DNA of 39,108 nt, taken from assembly GCA_903844385.1 (NCBI GenBank), contig CAIMTJ010000111.1, forward strand, positions 1 through 39,108, read 5' to 3'. This document shows, in pieces, positions 25,416 to 32,040 of the stretch; positions within the stretch are counted from its first letter, which is position 1; the number at the start of each line of letters is the position of its first letter. The notes beneath the pieces were generated by a model. It saw only the letters and a list, made by a program, of their open reading frames with translations, made no database searches and was not told the DNA's origin. Made by a program: the position numbers and the translations under genes. Source of the DNA: an uncultured Burkholderiales bacterium (lineage in GTDB: Bacteria; Pseudomonadota; Gammaproteobacteria; Burkholderiales; Burkholderiaceae_C).

Positions 25416-25847
25416 ATGACACTGTCGGTCACACTCGAGCGCAGATTACTTGTTTTCATGCTCTTGGCGGCAGTGAGCCTTGCTGCGCAGGCCTGGAACC
25501 CGTTCACCCCCAAAAGTGACAATGAAGAGTTGCCACTGTCGGTGGAAGAATTAAAAAAAGTCCAAGAAAATGCCGGCTGGGCCAAAGAAGACGACAAGAC
25601 GCTGATCTTTGAAGTTCACAATGACCTCAAAGGCCCAATTGCCTGCTCAGGAGCTCAGGTTGAACTCCATGATGGCAAACACATGTCCAGAGGCTTCACC
25701 CCCAAGCTCTTTGTCGCTCCTGGAAACTCTCGGTTTGCCAGCTTTCCCGGCATTGTCAAAGGCACCATGAAGTCCTACGTGGTGACTTGTTCTTGCTTTA
25801 AAAAGCAAGGCAAAGGTGAGTGCATCAACCCTATGGCAAAACCCTGA
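25416..25847 (+). CDS. Unrecognised small exported protein
   Basis: This 143-aa protein has a signal peptide (ERRLLVFMLLAAVSLAAQAW) and a mature domain of about 115 residues. The mature part contains an internal Cys, a CSCF motif and a final CINP, suggesting disulfides. The pattern LPLSVEELKKVQENAGWAKEDDK reads as a surface helix followed by beta strands. No family recognised. It starts 23 bp after the CbiX-like gene on the same strand and converges with the BNR gene across 37 bp. Confidence 0.6.
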   Translation: MTLSVTLERRLLVFMLLAAVSLAAQAWNPFTPKSDNEELPLSVEELKKVQENAGWAKEDDKTLIFEVHNDLKGPIACSGAQVELHDGKHMSRGFTPKLFVAPGNSRFASFPGIVKGTMKSYVVTCSCFKKQGKGECINPMAKP

Positions 25848-25884: not shown

Positions 25885-27111
25885 TCAGGGGTCCAGACGC
25901 ATCAGTTGATAACCATTGAGTCGAGTGAGCCAAGAGACATAAACCCGATGGCCATCCTTGAGCAGCAAAGGGTGATCAGAGTAGCCCCGGGTGGTCATCA
26001 ACTCTTGAGCGGGCGACCACGTCAAGCCTTGATCGGTGGAGAGCATGGAATGCAGGCTTGATGTTTCACCATCAAACTGCTTCCACACCAACCACACCGA
26101 GCTGCCGCTTGAGAGCACAAAGGCGCGACTGGGGTTCAAGGCCGGGTTGCCGATTGGCATGGGCTCAGAGAAAACTTGGGCCCCCGGCAAGGCGTGAGCA
26201 TAATAAAGACCCGATCGAATGGATCCTTGGGTGAACCAAGTCACATGCATCGCACCTGTTTCAGACACCGACACCGATGGCCCTTGATGAGGACAAACAT
26301 CGGTTTGCCAGTGGTCGATCGAGACCCGCTGGAGCGCACTTGGAAGGTATTGATCACTCACCGATTGGATGGCGTGGTCTCTCACGCCACCGGCAAAAAG
26401 AGCCCGGTAAGCCAGGACGGCTCGATCATTGGAGTCGATGGCCAGCCCGATGCGGCAACACTCACAACTCTCGGGGTTGATGATGATTTCCTTTTTAAAG
26501 GTTTGACCCCAATCGCTGGTTTGCGTATAGGCGATAGAACCACCCAGAGCCACTTTGCCCGATTTGTTCTTTTGTGCAACCACGCGTTTATCAACCCAAG
26601 CCATCGAGACCACACCTTGTTTTTGAAGGCCCAGCACCGGGAAACGCTCACTGTCACCACTCTTTGAGATGGCCTTGGGCAAGGTGAAATGCTCAGCAAA
26701 ATCAGTGGACAAGGAAAAATTCACCTTGGCATTCCATTGGGTGTCCTTGAAATACCCATAAACCACCAGGACATGGCCATCGTCATGGGCAATGATTTGA
26801 GCTCGGGCATCGGCACCCGTGTCAAGATTTTTCTGGTGCTCGGCAATTTCAACTCTCGGGCCAAAGGAGCGCCCCCCATCACGGGACTTGGCCACGGAGA
26901 CGGCCCCTCCAGCGGTCCAAACCACAGCCAAGGTCCCGTCTGCGAGCCATGCGGGTGATGCCGCATTGGCGCAAGCCAATTCTTTCGAATGACAAGCCAG
27001 CGTTGCAGCCACGGTGGGGAGGTGGTGAGACGTCAACTCCTGCGCACCCAATGATGCACAGCATGACATGGCCAGACAAAGAAGGCCCTTCAAAAAATTC
27101 AATAAATTCAT
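25885..27111 (-). CDS. Exported BNR/sialidase-fold protein, third gene of the CruR operon
   Basis: This 408-aa protein has a signal peptide (about residues 1-23). The mature part is a beta-propeller with clear Asp-box repeats: SRDGGRSF (76-83), TSDWGQTF (198-205) and STDQGLTW. That fold occurs in sialidases and in many non-enzymatic proteins; the sialidase Arg triad is not evident, so I do not call an exo-sialidase. A striking SCECC at 215-219 and a DVCPHQ at 272-277 could bind a metal. It lies 78 bp after the TonB receptor and matches the position of bp2921 in the Bordetella cruR operon. A periplasmic role with copper is inferred from context. Confidence 0.8.
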   Translation of the reverse strand: MNLLNFLKGLLCLAMSCCASLGAQELTSHHLPTVAATLACHSKELACANAASPAWLADGTLAVVWTAGGAVSVAKSRDGGRSFGPRVEIAEHQKNLDTGADARAQIIAHDDGHVLVVYGYFKDTQWNAKVNFSLSTDFAEHFTLPKAISKSGDSERFPVLGLQKQGVVSMAWVDKRVVAQKNKSGKVALGGSIAYTQTSDWGQTFKKEIIINPESCECCRIGLAIDSNDRAVLAYRALFAGGVRDHAIQSVSDQYLPSALQRVSIDHWQTDVCPHQGPSVSVSETGAMHVTWFTQGSIRSGLYYAHALPGAQVFSEPMPIGNPALNPSRAFVLSSGSSVWLVWKQFDGETSSLHSMLSTDQGLTWSPAQELMTTRGYSDHPLLLKDGHRVYVSWLTRLNGYQLMRLDP

Positions 27112-27189
27112 CCTGTCACCTTTTGTATTTCATCGCCGAACATTGACCCACACCGCCAAAACTGAGGCCTCCACGGCCCCAGAGTTGAT

Positions 27190-29421
27190 TTAAAAAAGAT
27201 GCTTCAAACCAAGACTGATGGTCCTCGGTGGCGAGAGCGTCTGCGATTGTGGGCTTGTGATGGTGTAAGTGCCGTCTTGGTATTGACGATTGAACAGATT
27301 GACCGCATTGGCAAAAACATCCGTCGCCGCGTCGACCTTGAAGCTCAAGCTCGCGTTGTAAACCACATTGGCGCCTTGAACCGCGTTGAGGGTGCTGCTT
27401 TGATAAAAGGAAAGTGCTCCGATGTAGCTCACTTGACCATAGATCCGAACACGGCGATCAGGATACCAAGTGCCCGCCAGTGAGGCAGTCTGTTGTGGGA
27501 TGCCAGCGAGTTGTGTCTGAGTTGGCGTCGTGACACCATTCCAAGTGGCGGTGAGATGCGTGTTCGTGTAGGCATAAATGGCATCCACGGTGAGATCAGC
27601 GCGGGCTTTCCACTTCTCGCTCAATTCCACACCTTGCGATTGACCATTTTGATCGTTCGAGTAAAAACTCACCGAGGCCCCACAGTTGGTCAAATTTGGC
27701 GTGCCCCCCAAGGGTGCTGTGCTGCACAAATTGACGACCGGTTGCGGCAAGATGTTCGCCGTTGTGTAGGTGGACGTGGCGATCATGTTGTTGATGTGAT
27801 TCAAAAAATAGGTGGCACTGAAGTCACTGCTGGGCGATTTGATGTCCACCCCCATCTCCCACCCCGTGAGTGTTTCTGGCATCAAATTGGGGTTGGCAAT
27901 GGTGCTGCCATAACTGCGGGTTTGATTGTTCAGTCCTGGGGCTCTGAAGGCCTTGTAGAGCGAGGATCTCAACGCCACGGCGTTTGAAACATCGTAATGA
28001 ACACCCACGGCAGGGTTGAACTGCGTTTTAGAGTTGTCGCCATAGGGGCCACTCCCGGGTGAAACACCATGGGCTGGCGTGGTGAGGCTGAAGCTGCGCA
28101 GGGTGTTGGTCCAATTGTCCAAACGCGCACTCATGGTCAACAGCAAAGAGTCGGCTGGCTGCCATTTCGTTTGAACAAAGGCGCCCGTAAATGTTTGTGT
28201 GCCCTGACCATAAGCTGTGCCGGTCACATTCTGAGGAAATGCGCTCGTCGGCGCACCATCGTACTGCTCGGTATCTTGAACGGCCAGTTGCCGAAGATCG
28301 GCACCGAATTGAACATCACGCAGCGTGGCATTGAGGGTCTTGGAGTAGACCGTGGAGGCGCCTTTTTCTTGATAAGACTGCCGACCATATTGAGTGAAAT
28401 AATTCACGACGGGAGAGCCTCTTTGGGACAAAGAGGGTAGCGTCGACGACCCGCCATTCAAGCACGATGTGGCACTCACCAAATAGCAGCTCGACCCATT
28501 GGTCTTGTTGAACATCACGCGCTGAGCCCAGATGGTGCTGTCCAAACTGCCCCCACTGGCCAGATCAAGGGTGAGACCCCCACTCAGATTGGGCGCCTTT
28601 TGCAGGTTTTGGCCATAAACGCCATACAAATCTTGGTTTTGAGTGAAGTCATTGAGTTTGAAAAATCCTTTCACATCGGATGAAGGGCTGAAATAGGCCG
28701 ACAGTTGATAGCTGGTGGTGCTATCGCTCGGCGCTGCTTTGCCGGGATACAGATCTAGGTACTGAGGCGGTGTGACTGGGTAGCCGTGCGTTTGAAACTG
28801 ATGGGCTTCAAGCGCCAATCTCAGTGCATCAGAGACCACGACATTTTGAGTCAAGGACAAATTGGAGGTGTTGAACGATCCGTAGCTCAAAGCGAATTGA
28901 CCCGAGTTCTCATGGGGGGTTTTGGTGATGACATTGATCACGCCCCCCACGGCCATGCTGCCCCAAAGACTTGATGATCCTCCTCGAACGATTTCGACCC
29001 TTTCGATCGTGGACAAGGGGACCCTGAACCATTGGGTGGTCAGGTAAAACGGGTCGACCATGGGAACACCATCGACCAGCACCAAAACTTTGGCATTGCC
29101 CAGGCCTCGCACCTTGGTTTGGGTGCCCGTGGGATCACTCAAATAGGAGGGGGCCCCCGAGAAATTAAAGCCTGGGATGGTCTTGAGCAACTCGTCCAAG
29201 GACTGAAACGGTGACTTCTCTAAATCTTCAAGGTTGATGATCGTCGTGTGAACTGGCATATCGGCAAGACGGCTCGCATTGCGACTGGCCGAGATGGTGA
29301 TGGGGGCGAGTTGCGTTGGCGCGGTCGCATCGTAAGCCTCCTGCGCTTGTGAGTGCAGAGAGCCGCAAACGCCAATGGACAAGGCGGCCAAAATCAGCCC
29401 ATTGAAGGTGAACTTTTTCAT
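27190..29421 (-). CDS. TonB-dependent outer-membrane receptor, candidate copper-linked (BfrG-like)
   Basis: This 743-aa receptor has a signal peptide to about residue 27 and a TonB-box-like ITISAS near 41-46. The plug domain contains DELLKTIPGFN, KVRGLGNAKVLVLVDGVPM and ERVEIVRGGSSSLWG, and a 22-strand barrel ends in LGLKHLF. The ending with terminal Phe is typical of outer-membrane proteins. Two cysteine pairs (near SSCYLVSATSC and NLCST/NCGAS) lie in predicted surface loops. Its GGAG Shine-Dalgarno is 5 nt before the ATG and directly follows a 9-bp hairpin. Placement after a CruR-like gene suggests a copper-related ligand, but sequence alone does not fix it. Confidence 0.93.
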   Translation of the reverse strand: MKKFTFNGLILAALSIGVCGSLHSQAQEAYDATAPTQLAPITISASRNASRLADMPVHTTIINLEDLEKSPFQSLDELLKTIPGFNFSGAPSYLSDPTGTQTKVRGLGNAKVLVLVDGVPMVDPFYLTTQWFRVPLSTIERVEIVRGGSSSLWGSMAVGGVINVITKTPHENSGQFALSYGSFNTSNLSLTQNVVVSDALRLALEAHQFQTHGYPVTPPQYLDLYPGKAAPSDSTTSYQLSAYFSPSSDVKGFFKLNDFTQNQDLYGVYGQNLQKAPNLSGGLTLDLASGGSLDSTIWAQRVMFNKTNGSSCYLVSATSCLNGGSSTLPSLSQRGSPVVNYFTQYGRQSYQEKGASTVYSKTLNATLRDVQFGADLRQLAVQDTEQYDGAPTSAFPQNVTGTAYGQGTQTFTGAFVQTKWQPADSLLLTMSARLDNWTNTLRSFSLTTPAHGVSPGSGPYGDNSKTQFNPAVGVHYDVSNAVALRSSLYKAFRAPGLNNQTRSYGSTIANPNLMPETLTGWEMGVDIKSPSSDFSATYFLNHINNMIATSTYTTANILPQPVVNLCSTAPLGGTPNLTNCGASVSFYSNDQNGQSQGVELSEKWKARADLTVDAIYAYTNTHLTATWNGVTTPTQTQLAGIPQQTASLAGTWYPDRRVRIYGQVSYIGALSFYQSSTLNAVQGANVVYNASLSFKVDAATDVFANAVNLFNRQYQDGTYTITSPQSQTLSPPRTISLGLKHLF

Positions 29422-29432
29422 AATAACTCCGA

Positions 29433-29456
29433 GAACTTGGTAGATGAACCAAGTTC
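29433..29456. promoter_or_regulatory. Hairpin before the TonB receptor start
   Basis: GAACTTGGT (29433-29441) pairs over 9 bp with ACCAAGTTC (29448-29456) around a 6-nt loop. In the leftward transcript it forms immediately upstream of the receptor's GGAG Shine-Dalgarno. A weaker stem, CCATTG/CAATGG, lies at 29473-29494, also between cruR and the receptor. This 112-nt spacer is where Rho-dependent termination would be expected by analogy with Bordetella. Confidence 0.65.
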
Positions 29457-29533
29457 AAACATCAAAATTTTTCCATTGGCAATGCGCGCAATGGAGGACG
29501 ACGTCGAGTGCGTTGCATCGACAGCGACGAAAT

Positions 29534-29911
29534 TCAGATGTCGGCTGGAGGAGCCCTTGAAGACTGAGATGACCAAGCAACGCGGGTGCTGATGCGCTGG
29601 GATTGACCCAAGAGTAAGCGCACTGATGACGCATTGAGCCCCAGTACAACCTCGGGGTGAGGATCAAAGGACAATGCCACTGGGAGTTGGCACAAGGGAC
29701 AATGGTCAACAACCTGAGCAGGGTGAGGCACCTTGCCAGACTCTGGGTCAACATGAACGAGCTGAACGCCTTGGGCCGTACACACCTCGAGGGTCAACAA
29801 GTGGCTTGGGCTCGAGCCCCAGAGCGTAGCAGCACTGGGCAACACAAAGGCGAAGAACAACACCCAGGGCATTGCCAGTTTGGCCAGGCTGAAGACTCGA
29901 AGATGTTGCAT
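29534..29911 (-). CDS. cruR: CruR-type DUF2946 copper-responsive upstream ORF
   Basis: This 125-aa protein is of the DUF2946 family. A hydrophobic N-terminal segment (about 12-30) is followed by LEVCTAQG, then HCPLC with the CXXC at 71-74, and a C-terminal RAPP at 119-122, five residues from the end (codons at 29557-29546). In Bordetella pertussis, CruR senses copper through the CXXC of the nascent chain. Without copper, translation arrests on RAPP and the downstream genes are made; copper relieves the arrest and Rho ends transcription. The same operon order holds here. The ATG at 29911 has an in-frame TGA two codons upstream, so no longer start exists. Confidence 0.9.
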   Translation of the reverse strand: MQHLRVFSLAKLAMPWVLFFAFVLPSAATLWGSSPSHLLTLEVCTAQGVQLVHVDPESGKVPHPAQVVDHCPLCQLPVALSFDPHPEVVLGLNASSVRLLLGQSQRISTRVAWSSQSSRAPPADI

Positions 29912-29917
29912 CTCTCA

Positions 29918-29926
29918 ATTATAGCA
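29918..29926 (-). promoter_or_regulatory. Extended -10 promoter of the cruR operon
   Basis: TGCTATAAT reads leftward at 29926-29918: a consensus -10 with the TGn extension, and no good -35. Only 6 nt separate it from the cruR ATG, so transcription should begin at or next to the start codon. That gives a leaderless or nearly leaderless message. Confidence 0.7.
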
Positions 29927-30090: not shown

Positions 30091-31734
30091 TCAACGCTTT
30101 GTTGGGGTATCGCCATGCCGATCTTGACGCTCTCGCAAAGACCGTCGTTTCGCTTTGAACACCTCTTTAGCACCCAGGCCGTCACGCCCGCTTCCTAGGC
30201 GCAGACTTGCATGCGATAAACATCGGGGTCGCGCTCGAGAACCACTGGCCACATAGTCCTCCAACACCAACGCTCGAACATGCTCACTTGGCAATCCACG
30301 CTCCTGGGTCAAGTGCTCAAAAATAGCGTCCGCCAAATCTTCAGGTGACAAGCCATAGGTTTTTCCAAAAGCAGACCACATCGAATCCGACAAACCCATG
30401 AATGACCAAAATGCTGAAAACTTTGGCGAGTAGGTCTCCAAAATCAATGGCATTGTTTTCTTAAAGCGTCCCGAGTTGGCCACCAAATCCCAATACTTGG
30501 CCATGCGTGTAAAGCGCTGAATGCTGCGGGCATCGATATCTTGGGTTTGTTGGATGGCATAGGGAGGATTCGGGTCATAGACCATGGCATGCGTGAGGGT
30601 ATGGCGCGCAATGGGCGTTCCTCGCAAACGCTTTAATATTCCCAACTGAATTTCTTGAGGGCCGATGGATAACAGTCGATCAAAGCCCTGTGCAAAGCTT
30701 TCCATGGTTTCACCAGGCAGGCCAAAAATCAAGTCGGTGTGCAAATGCGCGTGCGATGCGCTCAATAACCAACGCAAATTCAGCTCGGTCTGAACATTGT
30801 CTTGACGCCGAGAAATGCGTTGCTGCACTTCCGCGTTGAAACTTTGAATGCCCACTTCAAACTGCAAGACCCCGGGTGGAAACTCGGTGATCAAACTCTT
30901 GAGGCGATCGGGTAAATTGTCGGGAATCACTTCAAAGTGGACGAATAATTCAGCGCCTGAGCCTTCGGTCAAACGATCTAAAAAAAACTGAAGTATTTGG
31001 ACTGAGGTCTCAATTTTGAGGTTGAAGGTGCGATCCACAAATTTGAAATTGCGTGCACCTCGTTGGTACAGGATGCTGATCTCTTGAAGAAACAAGGCCA
31101 GATCAAAGCCCCAGGCTGTTTTATCGAGTGAGCTCAAACAAAATTCGCATTTGAAGGGACAACCTCGAGAGGCCTCCACATAAAGCACGCGGTGAGCCAA
31201 ATCGCTGTCTGTGAAGTGCTGATAGGGCAACTCAATTTGATCCAAGGGCGGCTGCTCACCCACGATCATTTTTTGCAAAGGTCTGGGCCCCTCGATCAAT
31301 GCCCGACACAATTTCGGAAAACTCACATCTCCCCAACCCGAGATGACATAGTTGGCAAGCTTGACAATTTCCTGTGATTGGGCCTCATGGCTCACTTCCG
31401 GCCCACCAAGCACCACTTGAACAGCCGGTCGACGCGCTTTGAGCTCACGCACCAGTTCTGTGGTTGGGGTCACATTCCAAATGTAGACACCAAAACCAAT
31501 GATCTGAGGTTGCCCCACTTGCTCAGGGCCCAATTGATTGAGCAACTGCTCGAGCATGTCGCTAATTTGGAGCGAAAGCGTGAATTCAATCAGTTGGGTT
31601 TGATTGGCAATGGCGGGACTGCCATGTCGAGCCATGTTCGCGAGCAAATAACGCAGTCCAAGTGACGCATGGATGAACTTGGCGTTGAGGGTGCACAGAA
31701 CAATGGAGGTTGGCAAAGTCGCGTTAACGGGCAT
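30091..31734 (-). CDS. B12-binding domain radical SAM protein with DUF4080-like C-terminus
   Basis: This is a 547-aa cytoplasmic enzyme from the ATG at 31734 (an ATG at 31809 would give 572). Residues 1-150 look like a cobalamin-binding Rossmann domain (VVLGGPEVSHE). The radical SAM cluster CPFKCEFC follows at about C192, C196 and C199. A HemN/elongator-like barrel comes after, with FEVGIQSFN and TDLIFGLPGE, and a C-terminal helical part resembles DUF4080. The later start is preferred because homologous N-termini begin near SIVLCTLNAKF; neither start has a Shine-Dalgarno. The substrate is unknown. The 3' end is basic and low in conservation, running close to the cruR promoter gap. Confidence 0.87.
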   Translation of the reverse strand: MPVNATLPTSIVLCTLNAKFIHASLGLRYLLANMARHGSPAIANQTQLIEFTLSLQISDMLEQLLNQLGPEQVGQPQIIGFGVYIWNVTPTTELVRELKARRPAVQVVLGGPEVSHEAQSQEIVKLANYVISGWGDVSFPKLCRALIEGPRPLQKMIVGEQPPLDQIELPYQHFTDSDLAHRVLYVEASRGCPFKCEFCLSSLDKTAWGFDLALFLQEISILYQRGARNFKFVDRTFNLKIETSVQILQFFLDRLTEGSGAELFVHFEVIPDNLPDRLKSLITEFPPGVLQFEVGIQSFNAEVQQRISRRQDNVQTELNLRWLLSASHAHLHTDLIFGLPGETMESFAQGFDRLLSIGPQEIQLGILKRLRGTPIARHTLTHAMVYDPNPPYAIQQTQDIDARSIQRFTRMAKYWDLVANSGRFKKTMPLILETYSPKFSAFWSFMGLSDSMWSAFGKTYGLSPEDLADAIFEHLTQERGLPSEHVRALVLEDYVASGSRARPRCLSHASLRLGSGRDGLGAKEVFKAKRRSLRERQDRHGDTPTKR

Positions 31735-32040
31735 GTCGTTGGGGTGGAATCTGACAAGTTGAGAGTGCAGACGGTCAGGTTGACCGCGGGCAAGCCCATT
31801 TGAACACATCTTGAGTGCAACAACCGTGACGCCGAGCGTTTCAAGACCGGGGGTACACGTGGATTATCCTTGAACTCTTGAATGTCTTCACAAAGCTCTC
31901 AGTCATGCCATTACTATGTGGATTTGAGACTGGTGTGGTGACCTGACATCTAAGATTGAAATATATGAATTTGAATTTAACTGTGTTTCAATATACAATT
32001 TTGATAAAATATTTTCAATAACCAATTTGGGAGATTATTT
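31735..32040. promoter_or_regulatory. AT-rich region upstream of the exported gene at 32041
   Basis: About 306 bp without a gene. From about 31950 it becomes very AT-rich. TTCAATATACAATT (31987-32000) and AATAACCAATT (32017-32027) occur here and again exactly upstream of the LysR gene at 35979-35992 and 35953-35963. GATAAAAT near 32003 could be a -10. GGGAG 7 nt before the ATG at 32041 is a good Shine-Dalgarno. Confidence 0.4.

Follow-up and report, generated by a model that had tools for sequence, protein, structure and literature searches.

A 39,108-nucleotide (nt) stretch of DNA from an uncultured Burkholderiales bacterium (GenBank assembly GCA_903844385.1, contig CAIMTJ010000111.1; hereafter the window) likely carries a CruR-like attenuator, in which a leaderless open reading frame (ORF) for a DUF2946 protein would set the expression of a TonB-dependent receptor and of a cysteine-rich, BNR/sialidase-like partner protein. 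The three genes are transcribed from the minus strand in the order leader ORF, receptor and BNR gene, with intergenic gaps of 112 nt and 78 nt; a sequence-only reading of this DNA had described these genes in that order, and the ORF calls and Pfam bore out both their coordinates and their content. The leader ORF is the first gene of the predicted operon, as 179 nt separate it from the end of the same-strand ORF at 30091-31809 and a -10-like element lies in this interval, and the BNR gene should be the last because the next ORF downstream (25416-25847) sits on the opposite strand. This trio is more than a chance arrangement, since its order is retained in the nearest relative, L066, together with ratios of non-synonymous to synonymous substitution (dN/dS) of 0.28 for the leader ORF, 0.14 for the receptor and 0.18 for the BNR gene. 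L066 is apparently the same contig as G031/L087, and the two were counted as one case. The leaderless start of the leader ORF is the best supported new point, with the four-cysteine partner protein second.

Judged from its upstream sequence, the leader ORF of the window looks leaderless, with an extended -10-like element (TGC-TATAAT) ending 6 nt before its ATG. TAAAAT occupies the identical distance in three relatives of the genus (L087, L088 and L089), GATAAT lies at 7 and 9 nt in two copies with a TGPP end (L206 and L207, respectively), and a -10-like element thus abuts the leader start in all six genus copies examined. For the wider family, DUF2946 ORFs were identified by profile, the start was taken as the nearest ATG before the profile match, and a -10-like hexamer was defined by A at position 2, T at position 6 and at least four of six matches to TATAAT. 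Such a hexamer ended 6-10 nt before the ATG in 20 of 43 leader starts of a first set (66 loci, 54 with a profile match, 43 with an ATG) and in 18 of 39 of a second, fresh set (40 loci, 39 with an ATG), or 38/82 in total; in the remaining 11 bins of five nt, out to a distance of 60 nt, it was present in 2-10 of the 82 starts per bin. The same 6-10 nt bin was occupied in 26/249 control frames (open frames of at least 300 codons on both strands, some of which are not genes; n = 440 for the composition analysis below), 1/45 receptor starts and 6/33 BNR starts. Shine-Dalgarno (SD)-like tetramers showed the opposite distribution, preceding 2/82 leader starts versus 23/45 receptor starts, 10/33 BNR starts and 77/249 control frames. 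Both signals persisted when one was kept of any sequences more than 50% identical (73 leader starts), with the hexamer in 33/73 against 26/249 control frames (Fisher P 4e-10) and SD-like sites at 2/73 against 23/45 receptor starts (Fisher P 4e-10).

Several observations weigh against a leaderless start. A sigma-70 consensus scan of the region found no site with a -35 element (2.3 expected in shuffles), in 44 of the 82 family starts the bin at 6-10 nt contains no such hexamer, and the cruR start of Bordetella pertussis was mapped 45 bp before the presumed initiation codon, in a recoded strain (PMC9426467). These three points would suit an ordinary leader in which the -10-like element is not a promoter in use, an alternative that concerns the start alone and was judged apart from the other rival explanations; we regard it as unlikely, if a serious contender, as it sits poorly with a positional peak that recurs in the fresh set, with the near absence of SD-like sites before leader ORFs and with the conservation of the element in six genus copies. 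TGn precedes the hexamer in just 8 of 38 cases, a further point against, and was rejected as a general rule. A hint of outside support comes from Cupriavidus metallidurans, where czcI2 is given as an example of a leaderless mRNA (leaderless starts make up 4.67% of the primary starts of that organism; PMC7563307) and CzcI2 is counted as CutF-like (PMC9973294). The main texts of PMC9426467, PMC9973294 and PMC12992588 do not contain the word 'leaderless', and among the papers listed by a literature search none of those mentioning CruR uses it. Transcription in the window is predicted to start at or beside the leader ATG, and ribosomes would therefore load without an SD site. Whether leaderless starts are the rule of the CruR-type leader class in this order is a question on which we are evenly divided. 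We give even chances, too, to the fuller reading in which the -10 element abuts the start codon, SD sites are avoided and translation of the nascent-chain copper sensor begins in leaderless fashion, the first ribosome following RNA polymerase from the 5' end, and in which this device here controls a receptor and an undescribed four-cysteine, sialidase-like copper family.

By family, motifs, spacing and position, the leader ORF fits the CruR group. Its product scores 31.6 bits against Pfam DUF2946 (cut-off 23.7), has a hydrophobic stretch at about residues 14-31 (judged by eye) and carries CPLC, a CXXC motif rather than the CxxxC of the CutF group, 44 residues ahead of a C-terminal RAPP that is followed by ADI and the stop codon. 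This spacing falls within the family range of 45 residues, plus or minus one or two, from CXXC to C-terminal RAPP; the sequence-only reading had pointed to both motifs, and they are present at the distance expected of CruR. Its statement that motifs and gene order are preserved relative to B. pertussis holds for the motifs and the first two genes and fails for the third, which encodes a PepSY_TM protein in that species. Its emphasis on a system outside the described host loses its novelty, because the CruR paper already reports more than 2000 DUF2946 proteins, mainly in Proteobacteria and often preceding genes of TonB-dependent transporters (Roy et al. 2022; PMC9426467), and the family is common in this order (108 of 300 genomes, 98 of which exceed the cut-off).

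This arrangement is best read as control of the receptor through an arrest at RAPP that copper relieves, with the regulation inferred from CruR. At low copper, a ribosome stalled at RAPP would prevent Rho from acting on the C-rich message, and transcription would continue into the receptor and BNR genes. When copper is present, the nascent chain would bind it via CPLC, the stall would be relieved, the ribosome would depart and Rho would terminate transcription within the 112-nt gap. Both CXXC and RAPP are required in B. pertussis (PMC9426467), and arrest at the RAPP of its CruR has been shown in vitro (PMC12992588). Measured across the final 200 nt of the leader ORF and a further 100 nt, the excess of C over G had a family median of 0.103 (n = 82) against 0.0 in controls (n = 440), which fits Rho use, although protein composition may contribute partly. 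The window itself speaks less clearly for Rho, with a modest excess of 0.077 and a peak of 17.9 that exceeds the 95th percentile (16.7) but is surpassed within the receptor gene (23.1), and a C-over-G bubble was rejected as proof of Rho in the window for this last reason. It is highly improbable that the leader product is instead an ordinary small exported metal-binding protein, such as a chaperone, with no role in cis: the dN/dS of the leader ORF, which shows that it is kept as a protein, speaks for this view, but control in cis agrees with R[AG]PP ends set at a constant distance from CXXC, with the long gap and with the excess of C, and complementation in trans failed in B. pertussis (PMC9426467).

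The gap between leader ORF and receptor measures 112 nt in both the window and L087, 113 nt in L088 and 133 nt in L089, and it contains a hairpin next to the SD-like site of the receptor gene. In all four genus loci a stem of 7-10 bp ends 1-3 nt before GGAG, the bases differing while the pairing is kept, with z scores against mononucleotide shuffles of -4.5 in the window, -4.2 in L087, -2.2 in L088 and -3.5 in L089. Across the family, 51 of 86 leader loci had an SD-like site at the next gene and could be assessed; z fell below -2 in 20/51 versus 18/135 controls, and in 15/44 outside the genus with repeated segments removed (Fisher P 0.003). The hairpin as such is not new, because the CutF paper already searched such gaps for stem-loops (PMC9973294). 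In the reading favoured here it belongs to the control region, where it may cause pausing or termination, protect the end of the message or shield the ribosome site. The last of these roles recalls CutF-like control, in which copper would prolong the arrest and open a receptor ribosome site shielded by gap structure, so that copper raises expression; CutF acts via a stem-loop shielding the SD site of cutO (PMC9973294), and a stable hairpin abuts the receptor SD in 4/4 genus loci. We nevertheless give such control a slim chance here, as the leader has CXXC and not CxxxC and an R[AG]PP end resembling CruR, the hairpin begins about 77 nt past the leader stop, far for a RAPP-stalled ribosome to unwind, and a receptor for uptake would hardly be expected to increase when copper is in excess.

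The second gene encodes a receptor with Plug and TonB_dep_Rec_b-barrel domains, both over the Pfam cut-off, and several findings on it and on the wider family count against a copper system of the B. pertussis kind. Its match to CrtA of B. pertussis (9rvq) covers residues 29-186 only (E 2.7e-8) and is outranked by those to CirA (E 1.7e-19) and BtuB; by sequence the receptor is not CrtA-like, and similarity to CrtA over the whole protein was not found. Among the matches listed, its nearest NCBIfam models are heme and other families with weak scores, all below cut-off, and the OprC-type model TIGR01778 was not among the best-documented set of 25 listed out of 29 NCBIfam matches. Some CutF-like proteins may, moreover, respond to other metals, nickel or cobalt being possible ligands (PMC9973294), and a table of a zinc regulon includes two DUF2946 genes of Caulobacter (PMC4176598). 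The receptor matches and these reports leave a small chance that the same arrest-and-release device is tuned to another metal or to cysteine oxidation, with the receptor taking up another metal chelate. On the other side, bfrG of B. pertussis responded to copper, not to iron and only moderately to zinc (PMC9426467), the partner family lies near copper genes in all six plasmid records described below, and PCuAC occurs in 2/61 scanned downstream neighbours of BNR genes. We retain copper as the probable signal, and the receptor and cysteine-rich partner probably serve copper acquisition.

The partner protein matches BNR_2 weakly (27.4 bits, below the cut-off of 31.4), making 'BNR' a weak label, and 'beta-propeller' likewise remains a family label: the best hit of a PDB sequence search had E 0.31, and a fold prediction from a two-row alignment (window and L066) reached a mean predicted local distance difference test score of 39.7. 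An alignment of 49 sequences comprised 43 near relatives (window included) and six distant plasmid relatives. Among the 43, C216, C218, C219, R220, C273, P274, G277, H289, R176, R236, R244 and D245 are invariant, and the four cysteines persist in all six plasmid relatives, where H275 and H289 are each found in one. An annotated copper gene occurs in the stretch shown of each of the six plasmid records: CopC adjoins the relative in the Methylomagnum record, copper oxidase and plastocyanin-like genes lie near it on two Rhodobacterales plasmids of one layout, and a multicopper oxidase is near it in the other three. This association is suggestive only, because plasmids are rich in metal genes. A Pfam scan of 61 of the 95 listed ORFs downstream of BNR genes returned AhpC-TSA (11), TonB (8), receptors (6) and PCuAC (2). 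Small AhpC-TSA/thioredoxin-like genes directly follow the BNR gene at L067:3604-4077, L082:8788-9246, L099:6486-6947 and other loci, with none there in the window. We propose this family, annotated as 'sialidase family protein', as candidate copper proteins, of which the window's member would receive or handle copper through its four invariant cysteines. The partner seems not to be named in the CruR papers checked: neither 'BNR' nor 'sialidase' occurs in the main text of PMC9426467, PMC12992588 or PMC9973294, and among the papers listed by a full-text search, to which supplementary tables are out of reach, none joined sialidase with copper, TonB-dependent and DUF2946.

A locus search with the leader ORF returned a single related locus, L066, and relatives of the leader ORF were found in four of 61 genomes (the window's own, 36 of the genus and 24 others of the order), all four within the genus; the three genomes other than the window's (G031, G025 and G033) all have the order leader, receptor and BNR gene. 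The BNR protein is more widespread, with relatives in 9/81 genus genomes and 47/300 order genomes (the window's own included in both). Fifty BNR loci, from 45 of the 47 order genomes (two with two loci; G063 and G000, the window, omitted) and three genus genomes, were compared. A window-like receptor lies immediately upstream in 33, the others having a long dissimilar upstream frame (6), a contig edge (3) or no such frame (8). Fifteen of the 50 have a same-strand DUF2946-profile ORF upstream, which in L071 and L073 lies about 1.3 kb ahead of the receptor frame. Short ORFs near the BNR gene, on its strand and ending in CXXC-(35-55)-R[AGS]PP, numbered 10 in these loci, all of them DUF2946-profile matches. 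L093 and L094, whose DUF2946 ORF is on the opposite strand, were left out of the count of 15; their BNR relatives are weak matches in short frames of about 200-225 codons.

Eighteen leader ORFs (the 15 above, the window and two further genus loci) end in RAPP (7), RGPP (4), QAPP (2), QEPP (2), TGPP (2) or AAPP (1). The TGPP copies, L206:1843-2214 (G646) and L207:2110-2487 (G616), are of the same genus, and in both CCVF replaces CPLC, so that the sensor and arrest motifs changed jointly there. AAPP, QEPP or QAPP ends stand on leader ORFs ahead of receptor-BNR pairs in L067, L071, L073, L082 and L098. In B. pertussis CruR, an R-to-A change (R139A) abolishes arrest in vitro (PMC12992588).

Coordinates are collected in Table 1. 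Two neighbours of the trio also have counterparts at the same position in L066: a B12-binding radical SAM protein with DUF4080 (30091-31809, on the strand of the leader ORF), which precedes the leader ORF, and a 143-aa ORF facing the BNR gene (25416-25847), for which no match was found in Pfam or NCBIfam at E 0.1.

Table 1. Features of the predicted CruR-like operon, in window positions.
Feature	Position	Strand	Basis
DUF2946 leader ORF (CruR-type), 125 aa	29534..29911	minus	ORF list, Pfam; dN/dS 0.28 versus L066
TonB-dependent receptor, 743 aa	27190..29421	minus	ORF list, Pfam, NCBIfam
BNR/sialidase-like protein, 408 aa	25885..27111	minus	ORF list, Pfam
TGC-TATAAT, extended -10-like element ending 6 nt before leader ATG	29918..29926	minus	position relative to ATG
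CPLC codons (residues 71-74), proposed copper-binding motif	29690..29701	minus	motif scan
RAPP codons (residues 119-122), proposed arrest motif	29546..29557	minus	motif scan
112-nt gap between leader ORF and receptor, proposed termination region	29422..29533	minus	equal length in L087
9-bp hairpin ending 2 nt before receptor SD	29433..29456	minus	z -4.5; stem kept with other bases in L087, L088, L089
GGAG, SD-like site of receptor gene	29427..29430	minus	position
CECC codons (residues 216-219) of BNR-like protein	26455..26466	minus	C216, C218, C219 in 49/49 aligned
CPH codons (residues 273-275) of BNR-like protein	26287..26295	minus	C273 in 49/49; H275 in 41/43 near, 1/6 distant relatives

The CruR mechanism is published, and the window alone therefore adds one more host. 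Its interest lies in where it resembles and departs from the known systems. Like cruR in the B. pertussis operon cruR-bfrG(crtA)-bp2921 (PMC9426467; PMC12914433), the leader encodes a DUF2946 protein with CXXC, a C-terminal RAPP and three residues after it, at nearly the same spacing (44 residues in the window, 45 in B. pertussis CruR), and is followed by a long gap (112 nt versus 162) and a TonB receptor as second gene. Unlike B. pertussis, the third gene is BNR/sialidase-like and not PepSY_TM, the receptor falls outside the CrtA group by sequence, and the start is predicted to be leaderless rather than mapped 45 bp upstream. Leaderless initiation of the leader ORF, if true, would go some way towards explaining the scant translation of cruR despite its place as first gene (PMC9426467), and would link copper sensing to a mode of initiation independent of SD sites. 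The PA0433-PA0434 pair of Pseudomonas aeruginosa, likened here by description only, also lists a DUF2946 gene beside a TonB receptor gene (PMC9431628), but PA0434 is CrtA (PMC12914433), a receptor of the CrtA group unlike that of the window. The cutF-cutO-cutG genes of Rhodobacter capsulatus likewise encode a nascent DUF2946-like protein, putatively exported in the window, that combines metal-binding cysteines with a proline-rich terminus, and they have a structured gap close to the SD site of the next gene; CutF differs in having CxxxC, in raising expression with copper and in preceding a multicopper oxidase (PMC9973294). The copper-island 'sialidase family protein' records (NZ_AP019784, NZ_CP084957, NC_015728 and others) share the four cysteines of the BNR-like protein at 23-27% identity, with each of His275 and His289 present in a single one of the six; unlike the window, the stretches shown carry no annotation of a TonB receptor or of DUF2946. 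This four-cysteine family is a concrete target for studying copper handling past the outer membrane. Ultimately, the window appears to hold a known kind of brake with as yet unreported features, namely a leaderless start, a four-cysteine partner and a hairpin of conserved pairing at the receptor SD.

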